Below are positions 616-18,195 of a DNA stretch of 20,625 bases, piece by piece. The DNA lies in IMG/VR virus record IMGVR_UViG_3300025647_000347, positions 1-20,625 of that record; one strand, 5' to 3'. The notes beneath the pieces were generated by a model. That model had not been told where the DNA came from and made no database searches. It saw only the letters and a list, made by a program, of their open reading frames with translations. The DNA is from a virus. The stretch's first letter is position 1. Each line of letters begins with the position of its first letter. Both the position numbers and the translations under genes were made by a program.

Positions 616-688
616 GACAGAGACCTGGGACTTACACCACTATTGATATTGAGAATCAGTCTCAATAAGTAGTGGATGCCCAGATGTC
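616..688 (-). ncRNA. Structured intercistronic RNA, family B copy 1
   Basis: Read as leftward RNA. Outer stem CTGGG/CCCAG is extended by GACA/TGTC. Then comes the conserved asymmetric internal loop (CAU on one side, UGUAAGU on the other), then inner stem CCACUA/UAGUGG. The inner stem is capped by about 27 nt holding a further hairpin (UUGAGA/UCUCAA). The element starts at the stop codon of the HNH gene (TGA 687-689) and ends 20 nt before the next ATG (596). Compared with copies 2-4, the inner stem differs in sequence on both sides while pairing is kept, which supports a conserved RNA fold. Confidence 0.65.
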
Positions 689-1112
689 AGCGGATGTAGA
701 GTGTTTCAACTCTAATGATTCCTTTATGGGATTTGCGCTGGCCCCTTCGTACTGCACGTAAGTGGCCAGCGTGATAACCATTCTCTTTGCACCAAGTATC
801 AAGTGAATAAATAGTTTCTGTTCTACCATCTTTCCATGTAAGAACATGATATTTAGAATTAGAAACAAAATCACCACTATCAATTGACTTTTGAATATGA
901 CAAGATTTACAAAGTAACTGACACTTCAATGCTTCTTCGTAGCAACGTTTAAATCCGTTGCTAGTAGCAAGCTCACCGATCGCCGCAACTTTAGTTGCAG
1001 GATCTATATGATCAAAATGTAAGCTGTCTGTTGCTCCGCATTTAACACACTTGTTTCCAAATGCATTACGAAGCTTGTCCATTCGCTTCAGGTACTGAGA
1101 AAACTCTTTCAT
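687..1112 (-). CDS. Free-standing HNH homing-type endonuclease
   Basis: A 141-residue protein with a complete HNH nuclease core: a CVKCG zinc ligand pair (residues 22-25), HFDHID (32-37) with the catalytic His, and a second ligand pair in LLCKSCH (66-72). The C-terminal part (about 92-136) contains a SLDTWCKENGYHAGHL segment followed by a basic RRGQRKSHKG stretch. This resembles the helix-turn-helix DNA-binding repeats (NUMOD type) found at the ends of homing endonucleases. Its ATG overlaps the stop of the upstream cistron (ATGA, 1109-1112). The product should cut DNA and may be a mobile gene inserted in this operon. No intron boundaries are evident around it. The gene is followed directly by family B element copy 1. 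Confidence 0.88.
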   Translation of the reverse strand: MKEFSQYLKRMDKLRNAFGNKCVKCGATDSLHFDHIDPATKVAAIGELATSNGFKRCYEEALKCQLLCKSCHIQKSIDSGDFVSNSKYHVLTWKDGRTETIYSLDTWCKENGYHAGHLRAVRRGQRKSHKGIIRVETLYIR

Positions 1113-1456
1113 TTCAGATATAAATATTGACCAGCCCAGTCTGCTCGCTGGAGACAGTCGGCATACGATACATCATCCATGAGATTGTAACGGACAATCT
1201 TTGCAGGAGACTTCCAGCTTGCCGGCTTGTACACAGATCCAGTCTGACGACAAATGAATGCATGTACGGATGTACCACCCATGCCTGATGCCCTGGTACT
1301 ACGCTCGATGAGCTTGTAGTATTTCGTGCCTTTCACGATTTCAAATTCAATGCCACCTTCTGGGTACTGTCTGTAGTACTTCTTGAGCATTGCATCGATC
1401 AGGCACTGGATGCGAGCTTCCAGAACTTGGATGTGTTCTTTGAGTTGAGTTGTCAT
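1109..1456 (-). CDS. Conserved phage hypothetical protein (115 aa)
   Basis: Start chosen at ATG 1456 (MTTQLKEHI). An earlier in-frame Met would read back through an RNA element. Residues 1-25 look like an amphipathic helix or coiled coil. The central part has FEIVKGTKYYKL (about residues 37-48) and then SVHAFICRQTGSVYKPASWK (about 63-82), followed by PAKIVRYNL. I recall this VHAF...TG..YK.ASW..PAK..RYNL pattern from small uncharacterised proteins in many phages. The stop overlaps the HNH gene start by 4 nt. The repeat ACTCAACTCAA lies inside codons 2-6 here instead of upstream. Function unknown. Confidence 0.8.
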   Translation of the reverse strand: MTTQLKEHIQVLEARIQCLIDAMLKKYYRQYPEGGIEFEIVKGTKYYKLIERSTRASGMGGTSVHAFICRQTGSVYKPASWKSPAKIVRYNLMDDVSYADCLQRADWAGQYLYLK

Positions 1457-1480
1457 GTTGTTAAAAGGATGAGGGTTAGA

Positions 1481-1518
1481 CCCGGGACTTACACACACGT
1501 GACCGTGTGATGCCCAGC
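1481..1518 (-). ncRNA. Structured intercistronic RNA, family B copy 2
   Basis: In leftward RNA: outer stem CTGGG/CCCGG (one G-U pair), internal loop CAU opposite UGUAAGU, and inner stem CACACG/CGUGUG capped by a GUCA tetraloop. It lies 6 nt after the stop of the upstream gene (TAA 1524-1526) and 25 nt before the ATG at 1456. No U-tract follows, so it is not a typical intrinsic terminator. Confidence 0.65.
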
Positions 1519-1523
1519 ATTAA

Positions 1524-1877
1524 TTAAAGCTGCTCTTCTATGATCTTTGCAATTTCCTTGAAATTAAGACGTCGTTCATCGTTAAGACAAGTAAGAGTCG
1601 TTAAATCTTCTTCATATACAACATCAGGATCACATGAATCTAATCCAGACCATTTAATAACAGGCGCACTGATATTGTCTGCATCGTAATCAAAATGATA
1701 AAAGGTATCACCTTCTATTACATCTTCCTTCCACTCTTCGCCTTTCTCTTGGAGATACAAATCAGTTAATACACCAAGGCAACAGTAACCTTGGCAATCG
1801 CGAAGTACTTCTGTGGTTTGTGCATACTTCTCAGAGCGAAGTGCAGCAAGCCACTTTGCTTTAACTTCAGGATTCAT
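1524..1877 (-). CDS. Conserved phage hypothetical protein with YCCLGVL motif (117 aa)
   Basis: ATG at 1877. The N-terminus KAKWLAALRSEKYAQ (residues 6-20) followed by GYCCLGVLTDLY (about 30-41) is a pattern I recall from small uncharacterised proteins of many tailed phages. The adjacent Cys pair could bind metal, but that is not shown. The rest is strongly acidic, with Asp-rich loops and a C-terminal helix (RLNFKEIAKIIEEQL). It is soluble, with no membrane segment. No Shine-Dalgarno sequence precedes the start. Two tandem family B RNA elements lie upstream (1903-2014) and one follows the stop. Function unknown. Confidence 0.82.
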   Translation of the reverse strand: MNPEVKAKWLAALRSEKYAQTTEVLRDCQGYCCLGVLTDLYLQEKGEEWKEDVIEGDTFYHFDYDADNISAPVIKWSGLDSCDPDVVYEEDLTTLTCLNDERRLNFKEIAKIIEEQL

Positions 1878-1902
1878 GATGGATCAAAAGGTAAATGAAT
1901 GG

Positions 1903-1947
1903 TTGACCTGGGACTTACACACACGTGACCGTGTGATGCCCGGTCAA
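1903..1947 (-). ncRNA. Structured intercistronic RNA, family B copy 3
   Basis: Leftward RNA with a long outer stem (TTGACC/GGTCAA plus GGG/CCC with a bulged A), the conserved CAU / UGUAAGU internal loop, and inner stem CACACG/CGUGUG with a GUCA loop. It ends 25 nt before the ATG at 1877. The core is identical to copy 4, but the outer stem differs, so the copies are not simple recent duplicates along their full length. Confidence 0.65.
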
Positions 1948-1966
1948 ATTATTGAAAGGATGAAGG

Positions 1967-2014
1967 TCTGAACTTGGGACTTACACACACGTGACCGTGT
2001 GATGCCCGGTCAGA
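1967..2014 (-). ncRNA. Structured intercistronic RNA, family B copy 4 (tandem with copy 3)
   Basis: Leftward RNA with outer stem TCTGA/TCAGA plus GGG/CCC, the same internal loop and the same CACACG/CGUGUG inner stem. It lies 19 nt upstream of copy 3 in the RNA, so one intergenic gap holds two copies. The outer stem is rebuilt with different bases (TTGACC/GGTCAA in copy 3), which is compensatory change. Confidence 0.65.
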
Positions 2015-2021
2015 TCAGTGA

Positions 2022-2216
2022 TCAGTCAGCCGTGATGTGATGCGACACCTCAGGCTGTGGCCTGGTGATGTCAACACCAACCAATGCCCCGCCGGTGATT
2101 GCGGCGAGGAGGAGTGCGAGGAGGGCAATGGCATAAGACCAACGGCGTGTCTCATGAGACTCAGGGTAAGAATCCATGTGCACGTAGCCCTTGCTCATGC
2201 GATAAATAGTTTTCAT
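2022..2216 (-). CDS. Small single-span membrane protein (64 aa)
   Basis: Start chosen at ATG 2216 (MKTIYRMSKG), one base after the TGA of the upstream gene (2218-2220), giving a TGAGATG junction typical of coupled translation. A hydrophobic Ala/Leu-rich segment at about residues 27-47 is preceded by HETRRW, which suggests an N-in membrane protein with a short polar C-terminal tail. A downstream start at MSKG is possible. No family recognised. A phage inner-membrane role is likely but unspecified. Confidence 0.68.
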   Translation of the reverse strand: MKTIYRMSKGYVHMDSYPESHETRRWSYAIALLALLLAAITGGALVGVDITRPQPEVSHHITAD

Positions 2217-2217
2217 C

Positions 2218-2484
2218 TCAGGCAGTCTCCAAGATATAACGCATGTTTGTGAATGGACGCTCTTCATATTGATCAGAGCATTCTTCAAAACTGAGCCACT
2301 TGCCTTTACGTTGATAATCAAGGCACGTCATATCACCTTTCATGTAGTCATATATGTCGGCTGGGCATGCAACCCAGTACATATAAACAACTTGATCGGT
2401 AAATTCAAGGTAATAATCTGTGGGTTCAAGCTTGAACTTCTCACAAGCTGCTGTGATGTCGTGGTAATCAATTGAAATTGCCAT
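2218..2484 (-). CDS. Hypothetical acidic protein (88 aa)
   Basis: ATG at 2484 (MAISIDYHDI). The protein is Tyr- and acid-rich, with four scattered Cys residues (CEKF, ACPAD, MTCLD, ECSDQ) that do not form a clear zinc motif. No membrane segment. The leader before the ATG is A/C-rich (CTACTACGACATG) without a Shine-Dalgarno sequence, and two hairpins lie upstream (2510-2549). No function can be given. Confidence 0.72.
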   Translation of the reverse strand: MAISIDYHDITAACEKFKLEPTDYYLEFTDQVVYMYWVACPADIYDYMKGDMTCLDYQRKGKWLSFEECSDQYEERPFTNMRYILETA

Positions 2485-2509
2485 GTCGTAGTAGCAATGG
2501 GTTTAGTGT

Positions 2510-2549
2510 CCAGGAGTTGAATCCTGGTGGGAAGGGCCGAAGCCCCTCC
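2510..2549 (-). ncRNA. Two intercistronic hairpins: UUCG tetraloop and T-arm-like
   Basis: Leftward RNA after the stop at 2559-2561. The first hairpin has an 8-bp stem (GGAGGGGC/GCCCUUCC, one G-U) closed by a UUCG tetraloop (2530-2549). The second is CCAGG-AUUCAACU-CCUGG (2510-2527), whose loop contains UUCAA, as in a tRNA T-loop, but is one nt longer. No U-tract follows the first stem. Likely mRNA punctuation or stabilisation. Confidence 0.5.
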
Positions 2550-2558
2550 GATCAGGAA

Positions 2559-2804
2559 TCAGATCTGGTCTTCGTGCCTACGTTCCCAACGCAGCAGATC
2601 CCTATTGAGATCCACCTTGCGTTGGAGTATAGCAACGAATGGCATGAGGTCTTTAAATTCCTTCATACCGTCTTGCCATTGAAAGAAAAGATCAAGTGCC
2701 GCTTGGCGGGCGGACTCTATCTCTTGGTCAATGACAGGAGAATCTCGACGTGCCAGGAGACGAGCATCCTGGGTGAGGAGATGTTCAACAGCTTGGTAGT
2801 TCAT
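2559..2804 (-). CDS. Hypothetical helical protein (81 aa)
   Basis: Start chosen at ATG 2804 (MNYQAVEHLL). The frame upstream would read through hairpins and the ACTCAACTCAA leader. The protein is almost entirely predicted helix, rich in Glu, Arg, Gln and Leu, with a basic-acidic alternating pattern (SARQAALDLFFQWQDGMKEF at about residues 31-50) that could form a coiled coil. The C-terminus is highly charged (RWERRHEDQI). No recognised family. It is the only cistron here followed by a UUCG hairpin. Confidence 0.72.
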   Translation of the reverse strand: MNYQAVEHLLTQDARLLARRDSPVIDQEIESARQAALDLFFQWQDGMKEFKDLMPFVAILQRKVDLNRDLLRWERRHEDQI

Positions 2805-2816
2805 GGAACTAGCTTG

Positions 2817-2831
2817 GGTTGAGTTGAGTTG
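2817..2831 (-). promoter_or_regulatory. ACTCAACTCAA leader before the start at 2804
   Basis: RNA reads AACTCAACTCAACC starting about 12 nt before the ATG at 2804. It directly follows hairpin TGCAGG/CCTGCA. The same hairpin-plus-leader arrangement occurs before the gene starting at 3287. Confidence 0.4.
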
Positions 2832-2832
2832 G

Positions 2833-2880
2833 TGCAGGAGAACCCTGCAGAAACCCATCAACATACATTGATGTGATGGG
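2833..2880 (-). ncRNA. Double hairpin in 5' leader (type C, copy 1)
   Basis: Leftward RNA: hairpin CCCAUCA/UGAUGGG (2854-2880) then hairpin UGCAGG/CCUGCA with a 5-nt loop (2833-2849), followed by the ACTCAACTCAA leader. The same order (variable hairpin, UGCAGG/CCUGCA hairpin, leader, ATG) occurs at 3289-3359. Structure read from perfect complementarity. Function inferred only from position. Confidence 0.5.
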
Positions 2881-2892
2881 AAAGTGCAAGGA

Positions 2893-3096
2893 TCAGTTCA
2901 TGTACTTACTATTGACGCAATAGTAAGTGTCGCCTAAGAATCCGTGGGCGTAGACAAGGTTGTGTCCTGGTCTTTCGTTGCACATTGCTTTGTAGTAGTT
3001 GTTGAGTAACTTCTGTGCTCCAACAGATAGGAGTAAGCCAATATGAGCGCCAATGAAAATAGCAACACAGGCATCAACAAATTCGTTACGACGCAT
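2893..3096 (-). CDS. Small membrane protein (67 aa)
   Basis: ATG at 3096, two bases after the stop of the upstream gene (TGA 3099-3101), so probably coupled to it. After MRRNEF, residues 8-28 form a hydrophobic helix (ACVAIFIGAHIGLLLSVGA). The rest is polar, with two Cys (MCNER, YYCVN) that would lie outside or in the periplasm if the basic N-terminus stays inside. No signal-peptidase site is obvious. No family recognised. Confidence 0.7.
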   Translation of the reverse strand: MRRNEFVDACVAIFIGAHIGLLLSVGAQKLLNNYYKAMCNERPGHNLVYAHGFLGDTYYCVNSKYMN

Positions 3097-3098
3097 AA

Positions 3099-3287
3099 TC
3101 AGTTACCTTGCTTGGGCTGGATAACGAATGCCATGTCGTTAGGCATGATGAGCGCCGCCGCACGGATGCGGTACTCGTTCAGCTTCTCACCAATGTCAGC
3201 CTTAGTAGGCACCTTGGCATTATCTATGGTTGTAGCGGCAGACATAAGCGCAGAAGCAATATTCTTGCGGATGTTGAGCTTAGCCAT
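3099..3287 (-). CDS. Hypothetical basic protein (62 aa)
   Basis: ATG at 3287 (MAKLNIRKNI), preceded by AACTCAACTCAAAC and no Shine-Dalgarno sequence. Mostly Ala/Lys/Ile with a probable helix at residues 5-22 (NIRKNIASALMSAATTID) and another at about 32-48. Soluble. The stop is 2 nt before the next ATG, indicating a two-gene unit. No function recognised. Confidence 0.7.
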   Translation of the reverse strand: MAKLNIRKNIASALMSAATTIDNAKVPTKADIGEKLNEYRIRAAALIMPNDMAFVIQPKQGN

Positions 3288-3288
3288 G

Positions 3289-3301
3289 TTTGAGTTGAGT
3301 T
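3289..3301 (-). promoter_or_regulatory. ACTCAACTCAA leader before the start at 3287
   Basis: RNA reads TAACTCAACTCAA ending one base before the ATG at 3287. It follows hairpin TGCAGGT/ACCTGCA, copying the arrangement before 2804. Confidence 0.45.
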
Positions 3302-3307
3302 AGGGGA

Positions 3308-3359
3308 TGCAGGTGATACCTGCAATAAGAAAACCAGGCAGTACATACGTACCACCTGG
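3308..3359 (-). ncRNA. Double hairpin in 5' leader (type C, copy 2)
   Basis: Leftward RNA: CCAGG/CCUGG stem with an inner GUAC/GUAC stem (3334-3359), then UGCAGGU-AUC-ACCUGCA (3308-3324), then the leader repeat. The second hairpin shares its stem with copy 1 but not its loop. There is no U-tract, so it is not a standard terminator. Confidence 0.5.
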
Positions 3360-3377
3360 AATGTCTTAGAGCAGAGA

Positions 3378-3638
3378 TCAGAGCATAGAGTACATACGCT
3401 CTTGTTCCATTACAATCCCATAGTTGTAATAGTCTTCCATCTCTTCATAGAGACGCTTGACGCTGGTAGGTAAACCGCCAGTGATGTTTCTTACATCAAT
3501 GTCAATCCAGTCATAGTGTCCGTCGAAAGTAGGCGTCGCAATACGACACCACTTCTCAAAGTGAAGTTGGTTCTTGTTCCCATACCAACAAACGCGGTAT
3601 TTCCGCTCCTGTGCAGGTTGGTAGATCAGGGGTCGCAT
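3378..3638 (-). CDS. Hypothetical protein (86 aa)
   Basis: Start chosen at ATG 3638 (MRPLIYQPAQ). The frame further upstream overlaps structured RNA element A1 and has no supporting start signal. The protein is rich in aromatic residues (Tyr, Trp, Phe) with a probable beta-rich N-terminal half (KYRVCWYGNKNQLHFEKW) and a C-terminal helix (PTSVKRLYEEMEDYYNYGIV). No motif recognised. The leader is A/C-rich (TTACACTACACC) without a Shine-Dalgarno sequence. Confidence 0.72.
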   Translation of the reverse strand: MRPLIYQPAQERKYRVCWYGNKNQLHFEKWCRIATPTFDGHYDWIDIDVRNITGGLPTSVKRLYEEMEDYYNYGIVMEQERMYSML

Positions 3639-3672
3639 GGTGTAGTGTAAGCCAACCTCAGTGGTTGGCAAT

Positions 3673-3720
3673 TCTGAAGGCAGGGTTTGCACCTGCCAAT
3701 GCCGCTTTAACGGACTCAGA
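3673..3720 (-). ncRNA. tRNA-like intercistronic RNA, family A copy 1
   Basis: Leftward RNA: acceptor-like stem UCUGAG/UUCAGA (one G-U). A 17-nt insert contains UCCGUUAAAGCGG, able to form CCG/CGG. A 6-bp stem GGCAGG/CCUGCC has the 7-nt loop UGCAAAC. The two stems abut with no spacer, giving a 12-bp stack like a tRNA acceptor/T-arm. The loop keeps U at position 1, C at 3, a purine at 4 and A at 5, as in T-loops. The upstream gene's stop (UGA 3716-3718) lies in the first strand. A further hairpin GCCAACC/GGUUGGC follows (3651-3669). Confidence 0.6.
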
Positions 3721-3904
3721 TGTCGTAACCGTTACCGATGCACCAATCACGGTGGATCTGGTCGGCTTCCTTCGGCCAGTCATGGGTCCTGCACTGATGA
3801 GCAGTTGCTCGATCAATGAAGTACCCTGCGACCGGACCAGCAATAACGCCGAGGCCAAAAGCCCAGACGATGACTGCTGCGAAGGTGTGCTCGGGTTTGA
3901 TCAC
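3716..3904 (-). CDS. Small membrane protein, GTG start (62 aa)
   Basis: Start chosen at GTG 3904 (VIKPEHTF) because GGAG lies 7 nt upstream (GGAGAACACCC-GTG). An ATG further upstream would translate the tRNA-like element A0 and is unlikely. Residues 8-30 are hydrophobic and Gly/Ala/Val-rich (FAAVIVWAFGLGVIAGPVAG). A polar His/Asp/Trp-rich tail has two Cys. The same GGAGAACACC-GTG signal precedes the gene starting at 4475. No family recognised. Confidence 0.7.
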   Translation of the reverse strand: MIKPEHTFAAVIVWAFGLGVIAGPVAGYFIDRATAHQCRTHDWPKEADQIHRDWCIGNGYDI

Positions 3905-3950
3905 GGGTGTTCTCCGTGTGTGCAGTGCCCATCTCTGCGTACTAGGCAAG

Positions 3951-3993
3951 TCTGATGCCGGGAATCGAACCCGGCTGCGCACCAGCTATCAGA
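3951..3993 (-). ncRNA. tRNA-like minihelix, family A copy 0 with canonical T-arm
   Basis: Leftward RNA: 6-bp stem UCUGAU/AUCAGA stacked directly on a 6-bp stem GCCGGG/CCCGGC closed by UUCGAUU, a perfect tRNA T-loop. Only 12 nt (AGCUGGUGCGCA) replace the D and anticodon arms, so this cannot be a working tRNA. Its 12-bp stack equals a tRNA acceptor plus T-arm, a shape known from minimal RNase P substrates. The upstream stop UGA (3989-3991) lies in the first stem strand. No CCA follows. Copies 1 and 2 have the same layout, also followed by UUGCC. Confidence 0.62.
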
Positions 3994-4168
3994 AGGGAAA
4001 CTCGTCGATGCAAAGCATCTCTTGCTCCCAATCTTCAAAGGAAGCCAAGTATTCCTCAGCTTCCTCCTTGGTCATGTAATGCCTGTCACATCCTTGGAAG
4101 TAAGCCTCCTCGAGTGTGTAGTCATGGCCTTCAAAGGGATTTCGTTTGATCTGTACGGAGTAGTACAT
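3989..4168 (-). CDS. Small acidic hypothetical protein (59 aa)
   Basis: Start chosen at ATG 4168 (MYYSVQIKRN). Upstream in this frame is element A2 and no other start is supported. Short and strongly acidic: a YTLEEAYFQG segment, then a helix rich in Glu (TKEEAEEYLASFEDWEQEM). Three aromatic clusters and no membrane segment. Its stop codon forms part of the tRNA-like element A0. No function recognised, but composition and codon pattern look protein-coding and match its neighbours. Confidence 0.68.
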   Translation of the reverse strand: MYYSVQIKRNPFEGHDYTLEEAYFQGCDRHYMTKEEAEEYLASFEDWEQEMLCIDEFPF

Positions 4169-4203
4169 GTCGTGTTGGGTAGATGCCACGGGATTGTGGC
4201 AAT

Positions 4204-4250
4204 AACTGTGGGAGGGTTTGCACCTCCCAACCCGCTTTAACGGATCAGTT
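4204..4250 (-). ncRNA. tRNA-like intercistronic RNA, family A copy 2
   Basis: Leftward RNA: stem AACUG/CAGUU, one A-A mismatch, the shared UCCGUUAAAGCGG insert, and 6-bp stem GGGAGG/CCUCCC with loop UGCAAAC. Compared with copy 1, the T-arm-like stem differs by a paired change (C-G to G-C at the third pair) and the outer stem is different but still pairs. The stop codon UGA (4245-4247) of the upstream gene lies in the first strand. Hairpin GCCAC/GUGGC follows at 4185-4200. Confidence 0.6.
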
Positions 4251-4475
4251 GTTCTCCAGCATCTCGTCCACGTAGGACTTAATGACCTGGAGATGTTCGG
4301 CAGTAAGTACTTGGCTGCGGCCATACTCAAGCAGGTCAAGGACCTGGAGCATGACGTTATCGCCAGCTTCCTGCCGGGTTGGTACGCCACACATTTCGAA
4401 GATCTGATCTTGCGACATCTCAGTGATGTCAACGCAATCGATGCGACGAACGGTGGCGATGGTGGTGTTGGTCAC
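4245..4475 (-). CDS. Hypothetical protein, GTG start (76 aa)
   Basis: Start chosen at GTG 4475 (VTNTTIATVR), with GGAG 6 nt upstream in GGAGAACACC-GTG, the same signal as the gene at 3904. Residues 17-50 look helical (ITEMSQDQIFEMCGVPTRQE). The C-terminal half is also helical and acidic (VLTAEHLQVIKSYVDEMLENN). Soluble, no motif. The leader contains family B copy 5 sixteen nt before the GTG, and the stop codon is built into element A2. Function unknown. Confidence 0.72.
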   Translation of the reverse strand: MTNTTIATVRRIDCVDITEMSQDQIFEMCGVPTRQEAGDNVMLQVLDLLEYGRSQVLTAEHLQVIKSYVDEMLENN

Positions 4476-4490
4476 GGTGTTCTCCAGTAG

Positions 4491-4524
4491 CTTGGGCTTA
4501 CACCACTGAAGTGTGGATGCCAAG
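4491..4524 (-). ncRNA. Structured RNA, family B copy 5
   Basis: Leftward RNA: outer stem CUUGG/CCAAG, internal loop CAU opposite UGUAAGC, inner stem CCAC/GUGG with loop ACUUCA. It is the most divergent copy, yet it keeps the GGCAU and UGUAAG loop strands while both stems have changed by paired substitutions. It lies 16 nt before the GTG at 4475. Confidence 0.6.
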
Positions 4525-15657: not shown

Positions 15658-18195
15658 ATGCCTGCTTATCAACACCTTGCTTACCGACGTAACGCACAGG
15701 CTGCTGCACGCAGGCAACAAATTCGAGTTCCACGAAATCTTGAATCCCTGGAGAAAGCACGGGAAGATTTTGGGTTCTTTTGTGAGTATGTAGCAGATAA
15801 ACCACCAGCCGCTCACCACAAAGAATGGCATAGACAGTTTGTTACCGGCAATGATAGTAATTGTTTGATAAAGATTGCCGGTCCAAATGTTGATCTCTTG
15901 GCGCCGAGGGGCTCCGCCAAAAGTACCGTCCTTGGGTTGTTTACGGCATGGGCTATTGGTGTTCACACCATGGCAAAAATGCCGCTACAAATTCTTTATC
16001 TTTCCTACACAGTCGATATTGCTCGATCTAAGTCTGCAACGATTAAACGAATCATTGAAAGCAAGCGCTACCAAGAAGTTTTTCCAAAGGTACGGCTACT
16101 CAAGAACGTTACCAGCAATGAGTATTGGTCTATTGATCACAGGTTTGCAGGTATTGACACCACTGGTGAAGAACAATTCACACTCTGCGCTGCTGGCCTC
16201 AAGGGCTCCGTGACTTCTAAGCGCTCGCACTTGTGCTTGACAGGTGATACACTAGTTACGACCAACGTTGGTCAAGTGCCAATTAAAGCTATTTATGAAG
16301 ATCCAGACCAATACCAAATTGCTGTTAGAAACTCAGAAACAAATCAAATTGATTGGAGCAACGTGGGGGCAGTTACAAGGCGTTTTACCAAAGGCATTGT
16401 TGACATTACAACAGCCTCTGGAAATCGTATTTCAGCAACTCCCGAGCACCCTTTCGTTACGCAAGACGGAAAACAAAAGAGGGCGGGAGATCTTAGTGCA
16501 GGGGATGTCCTTGTCAGAGCATCCAACAGGAGACAAGATAAAGAACTGTCTTTCCTGCGGGGGGCCAAAGAAAAAAACACAACGTATCTGCGAGGCTTGT
16601 TTTCGTACAACACAGGCTTTTCAGGTAAGGCCAACTTGTCCGCAGTGTGGCCAACAGTTTTGCGTAACCTCAAATCGCTTATCCCAACGTCTTTCAAAAA
16701 ATCCATTAGTGATTTGTTGCAGCCATCAGTGTACTGGAGCAGCATCACGAAAGCTTCAGGAAAAATCTTGTCCAGTTTGTCAAGCATTATTTCGACCAGT
16801 CAGTCACAAAACAACTTGTTGCTCGCGGGAGTGTGCGAATCACCTTCATTCACGGCGAATGAAAAAGACTGGGAACAGCAATTACCAACACGGCTGCAGT
16901 TCCAACGATTTTCAGGAAATGAGACCGTTGATTTTGGAAAGGGACAATTTTACTTGCGTTGGATGCAATACAAAGGAGCGGAAGTTGTTATTAAGCAACG
17001 GAACGTCCAGGACAAATCTTTGCGTACATCATATCGACCACAAAAAGACAAACAATATCCCGCAAAATTTGATTACATTATGTCGCCAGTGTCATGTGGC
17101 GCATCATCAGGTAACGGACAAGGCTGGTCGCCCGAGCCCGTTTCCAGAGTTGAGTTTCTTAGCGAAAGAGAGGAGTTCGTCTATGACCTAGAAGTAGAGC
17201 ATTTAGACCACAACTTTATCGCTAATGGTTTAAATGTTTTGAATTGCATAATTGATGACGCGATCAAGTCAGCTGCAGATATTTCTAACCCTGACATCCG
17301 TAAACAGATGCAGGAGAACTGGAATGCGGTGATTGCACCAACAATGTTTGAGGGTGGACGTGCCATCTGTCTTGGTACGCGCTTCAGACATGACGATATT
17401 CACTCCACAACATTCAACCCACAAAACAACTGGATTCAAATTGTGTTGTCCGCCATCTTGAACGACCCTAAAACAGGGGACGAAGTCTCGTATTGGCCTG
17501 AGATGTGGTCACTGGATTACCTGAAAGAAAAGAAGAGGCAAGCACCTATTGCCTTCTCGTTCCAGTACATGAATCAGGTGATCAGACAGAATGAACTGTC
17601 CTTGGCACCAGAGCTTATTATAAAAGCCGAGATCGCCACTGAGTTCGATACGATTGCTGTGGGAGTCGACCTATCTGCTGGTACAAAAGAAAAGAATGAT
17701 TACACGGTAATGACGCTTGCCGGTCGAATTGGCGATCAGATTCACGTGATTGATTACCGCCGGTTGCGTGTCATGGGCAACCTTGAAAAGCTGGATGCCC
17801 TTAAAGAACTTCTTAATGATTGGTCTATCGTGGGACGTGACGAAAACGGAAATTACTATCCGACCTACTCCACATGCGATATTTATTCAGAAGCTGTGCA
17901 ATACCAGGCTTCTCTTGAATCAGACTTCAAGCGTGTTTGTTTAAACAATGAAAATCTTTATAACTTAAATTGGCACGCAGTCAAAGGATTCCGCGCCGAT
18001 AAACTTGCGCGTTTCCGTGGTTGCATGGGTCTTTTTGAAGATCGTAAGATAATTTTCAATCGATTCCGTAACTTCACGGCAATGTTCGAAGAGCTGACGA
18101 ACTTTGGTATTAGCAGTCACGACGATTGCGTCGATAGCTTGGTTTGGGTCATTAACGGTTTGATGCGCAAAGGAAAACTACAGGTTGATTACTAG
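15658..18195 (+). CDS. terL: Terminase large subunit with intein (845 aa precursor)
   Basis: ATPase-nuclease that drives DNA into the phage head. The N-terminal ATPase has Walker A APRGSAKST at residues 82-90. After intein removal (residues 193-529), the next strand reads HLCIIDDAIKS, the Walker B motif, so the insertion lies directly before the catalytic Asp pair. CLGTRF further on fits the coupling motif. The C-terminal RNase H-like nuclease has VGVDLSAGTKEKNDYT (first acidic site) and SSHDDCVDSLVWVI (last acidic site). The spliced protein would be 508 residues, normal for TerL. It is co-directional with the small terminase candidate and the portal. Inteins in TerL often sit at ATPase motifs, where loss by deletion would harm the host protein. 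Confidence 0.93.
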   Translation: MPAYQHLAYRRNAQAAARRQQIRVPRNLESLEKAREDFGFFCEYVADKPPAAHHKEWHRQFVTGNDSNCLIKIAGPNVDLLAPRGSAKSTVLGLFTAWAIGVHTMAKMPLQILYLSYTVDIARSKSATIKRIIESKRYQEVFPKVRLLKNVTSNEYWSIDHRFAGIDTTGEEQFTLCAAGLKGSVTSKRSHLCLTGDTLVTTNVGQVPIKAIYEDPDQYQIAVRNSETNQIDWSNVGAVTRRFTKGIVDITTASGNRISATPEHPFVTQDGKQKRAGDLSAGDVLVRASNRRQDKELSFLRGAKEKNTTYLRGLFSYNTGFSGKANLSAVWPTVLRNLKSLIPTSFKKSISDLLQPSVYWSSITKASGKILSSLSSIISTSQSQNNLLLAGVCESPSFTANEKDWEQQLPTRLQFQRFSGNETVDFGKGQFYLRWMQYKGAEVVIKQRNVQDKSLRTSYRPQKDKQYPAKFDYIMSPVSCGASSGNGQGWSPEPVSRVEFLSEREEFVYDLEVEHLDHNFIANGLNVLNCIIDDAIKSAADISNPDIRKQMQENWNAVIAPTMFEGGRAICLGTRFRHDDIHSTTFNPQNNWIQIVLSAILNDPKTGDEVSYWPEMWSLDYLKEKKRQAPIAFSFQYMNQVIRQNELSLAPELIIKAEIATEFDTIAVGVDLSAGTKEKNDYTVMTLAGRIGDQIHVIDYRRLRVMGNLEKLDALKELLNDWSIVGRDENGNYYPTYSTCDIYSEAVQYQASLESDFKRVCLNNENLYNLNWHAVKGFRADKLARFRGCMGLFEDRKIIFNRFRNFTAMFEELTNFGISSHDDCVDSLVWVINGLMRKGKLQVDY
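16234..17244 (+). mobile_element. Intein inserted at the terL Walker B motif (337 aa)
   Basis: Residue 1 is Cys (CLTGDTLVTTNVGQVPIKAI, block A). Block B is GNRISATPEHPFVT with the TxxH motif. Block F is EFVYDLEVEHLDHNFIANG. The C-terminal end is GLNVLN followed by Cys of the extein. The usual penultimate His is Leu here, which may slow C-terminal cleavage, although the block F His and the terminal Asn are present. Between blocks B and F the terL frame is open but shows no LAGLIDADG or HNH motif, only a Ser-rich, low-complexity linker. The endonuclease lies in the +1 frame over the same DNA (16496-17191). Confidence 0.9.
16496..17191 (+). CDS. HNH homing endonuclease encoded in the +1 frame inside the terL intein (231 aa)
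   Basis: Start chosen at GTG 16496, with GGGAG 6 nt upstream (16485-16489). ATG 16505 is the alternative. The frame is open further upstream, to 16268, but there it reads as a shadow of intein block A/B. Three zinc-ribbon-like clusters: C18-x2-C21 with C32-x2-C35, C48-x2-C51 with C75-x3-C79, and C92-x2-C95 with C109-x3-C113. The HNH core follows: LERDNFTCVGC (147-157), LCVHHIDHKKTNNIPQNLIT (175-194) and LCRQCHVAHH (195-204). The product should cut DNA, presumably the intein-free terL allele. Stop TAG (17189-17191) falls in intein block F. The gene fills exactly the place of an in-frame homing domain but is shifted by one base. Confidence 0.87.
   Translation: MQGMSLSEHPTGDKIKNCLSCGGPKKKTQRICEACFRTTQAFQVRPTCPQCGQQFCVTSNRLSQRLSKNPLVICCSHQCTGAASRKLQEKSCPVCQALFRPVSHKTTCCSRECANHLHSRRMKKTGNSNYQHGCSSNDFQEMRPLILERDNFTCVGCNTKERKLLLSNGTSRTNLCVHHIDHKKTNNIPQNLITLCRQCHVAHHQVTDKAGRPSPFPELSFLAKERSSSMT

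Follow-up and report, generated by a model that had tools for sequence, protein, structure and literature searches.

The window, a virus record of 20,625 bases in IMG/VR (G000, positions 1–20,625 of IMGVR_UViG_3300025647_000347), carries on its minus strand five copies of an RNA element in which two helices of variable sequence flank a constant internal core. The element belongs to a common, strongly covarying RNA family that, within the tests made, lacks an Rfam counterpart. It typically lies directly past the stop codon of one gene and about 30 nucleotides (nt) ahead of the start codon of the next, and at orthologous gene starts its place can be taken by an unrelated H-type pseudoknot. We tentatively propose, at somewhat less than even confidence and on sequence comparison, that the element acts in RNA as an intercistronic boundary module, by 5′-end definition, protection or insulation.

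All five copies listed in a preliminary description, which was made from the letters of the window, are present. With a 5-bp outer stem included, copy 1 spans 625–683 and consists of the outer stem CUGGG/CCCAG, the core GGCAU/UGUAAGU, the inner stem CCACUA/UAGUGG and a long branched apex. Copy 2 (1482–1517) has the inner stem CACACG/CGUGUG closed by the loop GUCA, and the same hairpin recurs in copy 3 (1908–1943). Copy 4 (1974–2009) is a near-duplicate of copy 3 in tandem upstream of it, and begins 5 nt past the stop codon that closes the upstream frame, while copy 5 (4491–4524) combines the outer stem CUUGG/CCAAG with the inner stem CCAC/GUGG. The inner stems, the loops and the tandem arrangement agree with the preliminary description, and a first correction to it is an A bulge in the outer stem of copies 3 and 4. 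GGCAT...TGTAAG is found exactly at 1488–1514, 1914–1940, 1980–2006 and 4497–4521 (four matches; mean 0.22 and largest count 2 in 100 shuffles), and also in copy 1 at 631–680, where the spacing exceeded the gap limit of the exact search. Folding-energy z scores of −3.5, −1.7, −3.6, −1.6 and −0.7 for copies 1 to 5 are by themselves not decisive; it is by comparison with relatives that the copies exceed chance.

This comparison bears out that the copies form a family of structured RNAs whose core is fixed and whose stems are free to vary. Specifically, where one outer pair changes from G-C to U-A in IMG/VR patterns, both sides are changed in 35 stretches and one side alone in 0. The first two pairs of the inner stem are formed in 72 of 80 distinct apical sequences (mean 35.4 and maximum 47 when partners were shuffled 1000 times) and in 20 of 23 sequences of a second set, and the search patterns behind the apical sets imposed no inner stem. 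Additionally, in 79 aligned copies, whose rows were selected by a descriptor that requires pairing, 98.5% of the cells pair, double-sided changes occur at 7 of 9 pairs and the covariation beats all 500 shuffles on 4 of 5 measures. The inner pairs include 15 G·U against 2 A·C, which identifies the folded strand as the sense strand. The apex ranges from 2 bp plus a tetraloop up to long branched inserts.

The two strands of the constant core read GGC-A and (G/A)UAAG-Y-CC, with Y being U in 150 copies, C in 9, A in 1 and G in 1, and with the base that faces A7 being G (133 A·G) or A (9 A·A). When the closing letters were left free, 161 nonredundant copies gave U·U in 139, G-C in 8, G-U in 6, C-G in 5 and A-U in 3, so that all 22 non-U·U closings are standard pairs (one match in the reversed control). 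Because U·U gives way only to standard pairs, the loop is not a fixed 3×7 internal loop as first described. Copies that differ in the loop while the stems stay identical, the pattern named beforehand as contrary to such a family, were not seen, and the opposite was observed except for this replacement of U·U. Redundancy was reduced with ad hoc cut-offs on flank identity, which varied by script and yielded sets of 87, 123, 126 and 161 copies, the last including one likely false member (L181).

Two apparent likenesses of the core were set aside. The letters of UGUAAGY agree with a T-loop, but the first U is the pairing position, and this reading is not relied on; ARAGORN detects no tRNA in the window, and UGUAAGY lies in an internal rather than a terminal loop, unlike in a tRNA or T-arm mimic. 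A likeness to E. coli 23S rRNA (GGCAG at 1162 and UGUAAGCC at 1201) was dropped, as the covariance model has no significant match there and the two strands of the folded rRNA segment are not paired as in the element.

Across IMG/VR, the exact pattern CTGGGCAT-N8..38-TGTAAGTCCCAG occurs in at least 120 stretches. The same pattern with a gap of 8–22 has two matches in 84,980 prokaryote genomes, both without the inner stem (L128 and L129, excluded from later sets), and by this one pattern the element is confined to phages. A relaxed descriptor finds 230 matches in 1.16 Mb of collected loci versus 0 in the reversed sequence, which measures the specificity of the descriptor rather than frequency because the loci are largely motif-selected; an rRNA locus was excluded from the phage counts. 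Searching whole records with the covariance model gives matches at E≤0.01 in 30 of 30 records, with 1–10 copies each, figures that are copy counts and not prevalence since 28 of the 30 were recruited via the exact pattern. In cyanophage-like records the copies lie mainly within one block and on one strand, with occasional single weaker copies elsewhere. The carriers are viruses of lake and sea bacteria, with hosts that we infer, and are mostly relatives of S-EIV1; lineages outside this group comprise a few contigs each.

S-EIV1, a cultured Synechococcus phage from a high arctic lake, is the only megablast match of the window among 50,697 phage records (74.5% over 1.67 kb at the right end of the window), and this kinship suggests that the window phage also infects a cyanobacterium. 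The two share one layout, with a leftward operon of small genes, in the left 5 kb of the window, and rightward structural genes beyond it. S-EIV1 carries three copies of the element, all on the minus strand (41439–41475, 40729–40784 and 36744–36783), and a contig that is 93% identical in one long protein carries additional copies with different stems. BLAST with two queries of 42–43 nt gave no true match in the phage collection, and the isolated relatives S-CBWM1, S-TIM5 and MaeS contain nothing at a meaningful E-value (one S-CBWM1 match, E 0.97). Rfam 15 has no match to the window at the gathering threshold, returns only tRNAs from six loci at E≤1, and returns tRNAs plus matches far under the gathering scores from five loci at E≤5, in line with the initial remark that no known riboswitch fits. 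Motif strings retrieved no relevant paper from 5.39 million open papers, and topic searches of the open literature listed no description of the element.

The position of the element between genes is strict. With gene starts taken throughout as mechanical open frames, and with three descriptor matches judged false and dropped (L005:11936, L049:3033 and L106:5265), an open frame ends at most 170 nt upstream in 112 of 123 nonredundant copies, most commonly at a distance of 3–5 nt. Downstream, an ATG that opens a frame of at least 40 codons lies 26–33 nt away in 71 of the 123, versus 5.4% at random places. The leader in between has a G content of 2.9% (first 3 nt excluded), versus 14.9% in the first 30 coding nt, and one of 90 leaders holds a Shine-Dalgarno (SD)-like string. 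Genes of cyanobacterial phages largely do without SD sequences. Among the annotated genes of S-EIV1, half of 43 genes have a G-poor leader, in a minus-strand block at 23–44 kb; a whole-genome leader comparison with crude gene calls was weak, as many of the called frames were false, and was abandoned.

In the window, the leaders that follow copies 1, 2 and 3 (597–624, 1457–1481 and 1878–1907, all minus strand) are without an SD sequence and place the 5-bp base of the element 28, 25 and 30 nt from ATG, respectively. Copy 5 lies 15 nt from a GTG at 4475, and its leader also contains GGAG. The placement before start codons stands, and the spacing of 16–25 nt given at first reflects the use of longer stems.

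The element also precedes tRNA genes. Of 28 nonredundant tRNAs, 6 have a strict element 3–6 nt upstream, and looser relatives precede further tRNA-Leu genes. The tRNA-Leu itself is mostly followed by a leader of 14–34 nt and an ATG. At tRNAs the element mostly reaches into the gene before it, covering the in-frame end of that gene, and its stems are still kept. As a side observation, tRNA-Leu(UAA) is common near the operon end in several S-EIV1-like loci (for example L110:7511–7630, L115 and L139), and the frame that precedes it (..DHTWHS..DVSPS..) extends through the element. Three further lineages place the element differently: before a major capsid gene related to that of S-CBWM1, between a portal gene and the following gene, or downstream of a phrog_4652 gene, where no gene start is near. 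Past the phrog_4652-associated element, L015, L030, L073, L108 and L008 have a GC-rich region of a few hundred nt with GGC-like short repeats and then a long frame. Separately, in L047, L050, L066 and L103 the element is immediately preceded by a long-range helix, UAUCAGCGCC...GCGCACCUUGAUA, that is conserved, and followed by an additional hairpin with AUAGAUUAGCC; in L047 and L103 a tRNA-Asn is inserted between them.

A second, previously unnoticed RNA family, absent from the window, occupies comparable positions. It is an H-type pseudoknot (for example CGTCCTGGGCATGACGTTAAACTGCCTA) with S1 of CGUC/GACG, also GGAC/GUCC or UGUC/GACA, S2 of 3–5 bp and the loop UUAAACU. In stem scans the native form occurs in at least 120 stretches, a compensated stem in 51 and a broken stem in 0, and this difference between compensated and broken stems proves the fold. 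Sites include L005 (S-EIV1) upstream of 42715–42957 and of 36999–38756, so that S-EIV1 carries two pseudoknots besides its three elements, as well as L010:3364, L010:6199, L145 and many other loci. Of 151 nonredundant copies examined, the remainder having no frame in reach, the distance from the pseudoknot to the ATG is 17–30 nt in 97 of 121, and the pseudoknot lies 4–8 nt past a stop codon in 68 of 116. Across 10 clusters of orthologous gene starts, counted nonredundantly, 93 starts carry the element, 28 the pseudoknot, 60 neither and 0 both, and both kinds occur in 6 of the 10 clusters. Riboswitches of the preQ1-I type are small H-type pseudoknots with an A-rich third loop. The second motif shares these features but captures no SD sequence and has no Rfam match (E up to 5, five carrier loci).

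Because two folds share one slot and tRNA-Leu occupies a similar one, a generic boundary function is favoured over ligand sensing. In the mechanism that we envisage, the sense-strand fold (outer helix, core GGC-A/GUAAG-Y-CC and inner helix, with a free apex) stands directly past the upstream stop codon, separated from the AUG by about 30 nt of leader that is unstructured and almost free of G, or 3–6 nt before a tRNA, and would set or shield the boundary between cistrons. Specifically, an RNA end left by endonuclease cleavage may be protected by the element, and/or the leader devoid of an SD sequence may be kept clear of upstream RNA, which would make ribosome loading possible. The core would serve as the site gripped by a host RNA-binding factor, be it a nuclease, a ribosomal or another protein. 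By BLASTP of eight records from three lineages, only a ThyX-like protein is common to all three groups, and any partner is therefore more likely a host factor, or unrelated phage proteins, than a shared phage protein. A broader version, which we regard as possible but doubtful, is an RNA punctuation in which two unrelated, interchangeable folds and tRNA-Leu mark cistron boundaries in operons without SD sequences, and one host machine cuts, protects or loads there. The strict position and the pseudoknot exchange make it testable how cyanobacterial phages keep the numerous small genes of a long operon apart and express them, and the cultured S-EIV1, with both kinds of fold, makes such experiments feasible now.

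Several observations weigh against a boundary module. Genes of the same operon often have other hairpins or none (the 60 of 181 starts with neither fold), the leader of copy 5 and of its orthologues is short and bears a GGAG-like SD sequence, and in one lineage the element stands 4 nt past a stop codon with no close gene start behind it. The missing shared phage protein, moreover, rests on the BLASTP of those eight records only. The tight distance to AUG is also compatible with a direct role in ribosome loading, in which the fold would dock on the 30S subunit or on a ribosomal protein about 30 nt upstream and replace the SD sequence. The nearly G-free leaders without SD, and the substitution by a pseudoknot at a similar distance from ATG, speak for such a role. 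However, the element is found immediately ahead of tRNA genes as well, one lineage has no nearby start codon, some copies (copy 5 and the major capsid lineage) precede leaders that do bear an SD sequence, and a phage-borne S21 is found in 0 of 23 records, so that we consider ribosome loading unlikely, though the strongest of the alternatives.

A translational operator for a phage protein, in the manner of T4 gene 32, would use the fold to nucleate binding of a protein that then coats the leader and blocks initiation. PMC535899 describes the T4 operator as a compact pseudoknot of about 28 nt, which can extend into the reading frame upstream and leads into more than 40 nt of less structured leader; the element likewise combines a compact fold with an unstructured leader before AUG. 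S-EIV1 encodes an annotated ssDNA-binding protein, and the leftward operon would form a multi-copy regulon. The T4 operator, however, serves one gene, with a UUAAA-rich leader that contains an SD sequence and with autoregulation by gp32, whereas the present element has a different fold, 1–10 copies per record and nearly G-free leaders without SD, and also precedes tRNAs, where there is no initiation site to block. By eye and uncounted, the leaders are rich in C, A and U and do not feature UUAAA or UAAA repeats, and beyond the ThyX-like one the three compared lineages share no protein. An operator of this type thus appears rather improbable.

The ligand binding suggested in the preliminary description finds no support. 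A compact conserved core, free stems and a place in the leader would suit a new riboswitch class for one metabolite or ion, yet the element stands ahead of capsid genes, of tRNAs and of numerous small genes that are unrelated to one another, and the other fold takes the place of the element before orthologous genes; these two features together point to a generic boundary or leader module. The leader has neither an SD sequence to sequester (1/90, as above) nor a visible switching helix or terminator-based expression platform, and the family is absent from the 84,980 prokaryote genomes by the one pattern used, both matches there being without the inner stem. We regard a riboswitch as very unlikely.

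Slightly less credible still is an attC-like hairpin of single-stranded DNA for gene-cassette exchange. In its favour, the element lies about 4 nt from stop codons, its apices vary on a base that is constant, and the genes that it separates are small and variable; in the window, the gene at 1524–1877, with elements on either side, is an insertion between two genes that abut in relatives. Against it, in orthologues the element remains associated with its gene and undergoes compensatory changes, its distance to ATG is constant, the copies that precede tRNA-Leu extend into the end of a reading frame and retain their stems, and the eight records from three lineages share no recombinase. Least probable of all is a self-cleaving ribozyme or a recognised RNase cleavage site in the core, which the location at cistron and tRNA boundaries would suit, but the core is very small and without an Rfam ribozyme match, and an inner helix as short as 2 bp plus a tetraloop is too short for a canonical RNase III site.

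With regard to boundary functions in other systems, structured RNA in the form of tRNAs marks gene boundaries in the polycistronic transcripts of organelles. Phage tRNA-Leu, in the same place before a leader and ATG, resembles this tRNA punctuation, although the element itself is not a tRNA by ARAGORN and Rfam. The plastid intercistronic expression element (IEE) of the psbT-psbH spacer is an intercistronic stem-loop required for the downstream message (PMC2230500). The IEE is plastid-specific and is cleaved in its terminal loop, whereas in the phage element the terminal loop is free and an internal core is conserved. The fold of the phage element differs from those of both the T4 operator and the IEE, and it is not assignable to either family.

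The genes downstream of the window copies, all on the minus strand, differ from one another. Copy 1 precedes a small gene at 351–596 and copy 5 another at 4245–4475, both without a PHROG match, while copy 2 precedes 1109–1456 (phrog_818, unknown function) and copies 3 and 4 precede 1524–1877 (phrog_18067, unknown function). In the orthologues of the copy 5 locus (L011, L022, L038 and L138) the element is kept with compensatory stem changes. Orthologues of 1109–1456 mostly abut their upstream gene without an element; in three of them the gap is occupied by a pseudoknot-like or other leader, and the element is present in the window, L021 and L059.

Other features of the window were noted in passing. 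Two T-arm-like hairpins on the minus strand, GGCAGG-UGCAAAC-CCUGCC (3679–3697 with 3702–3713) and GGGAGG-UGCAAAC-CCUCCC (4210–4228 with 4232–4243), each stand behind CCGUUAAAGCGG, and motifs like these occur ahead of genes in S-EIV1 and at several loci. A minus-strand hairpin at 3957–3975, GCCGGG-UUCGAUU-CCCGGC, resembles a tRNA T-arm, with no tRNA called by ARAGORN in the window. At 2500–2870 and in orthologous leaders, further hairpins (CUGCAGG..CCUGCA and UUGCCAC..GUGGC) lie about 12–30 nt ahead of the ATG of other operon genes, frequently preceded by terminator-like hairpins that carry a T-run. Finally, a terminase-like protein encoded on the plus strand at 15658–18195 contains, by eye, an internal intein-like block that ends in HNFIANGLNVLN before C, and a 307-aa frame with HNH-like zinc motifs (16268–17191) overlaps this gene in another frame.

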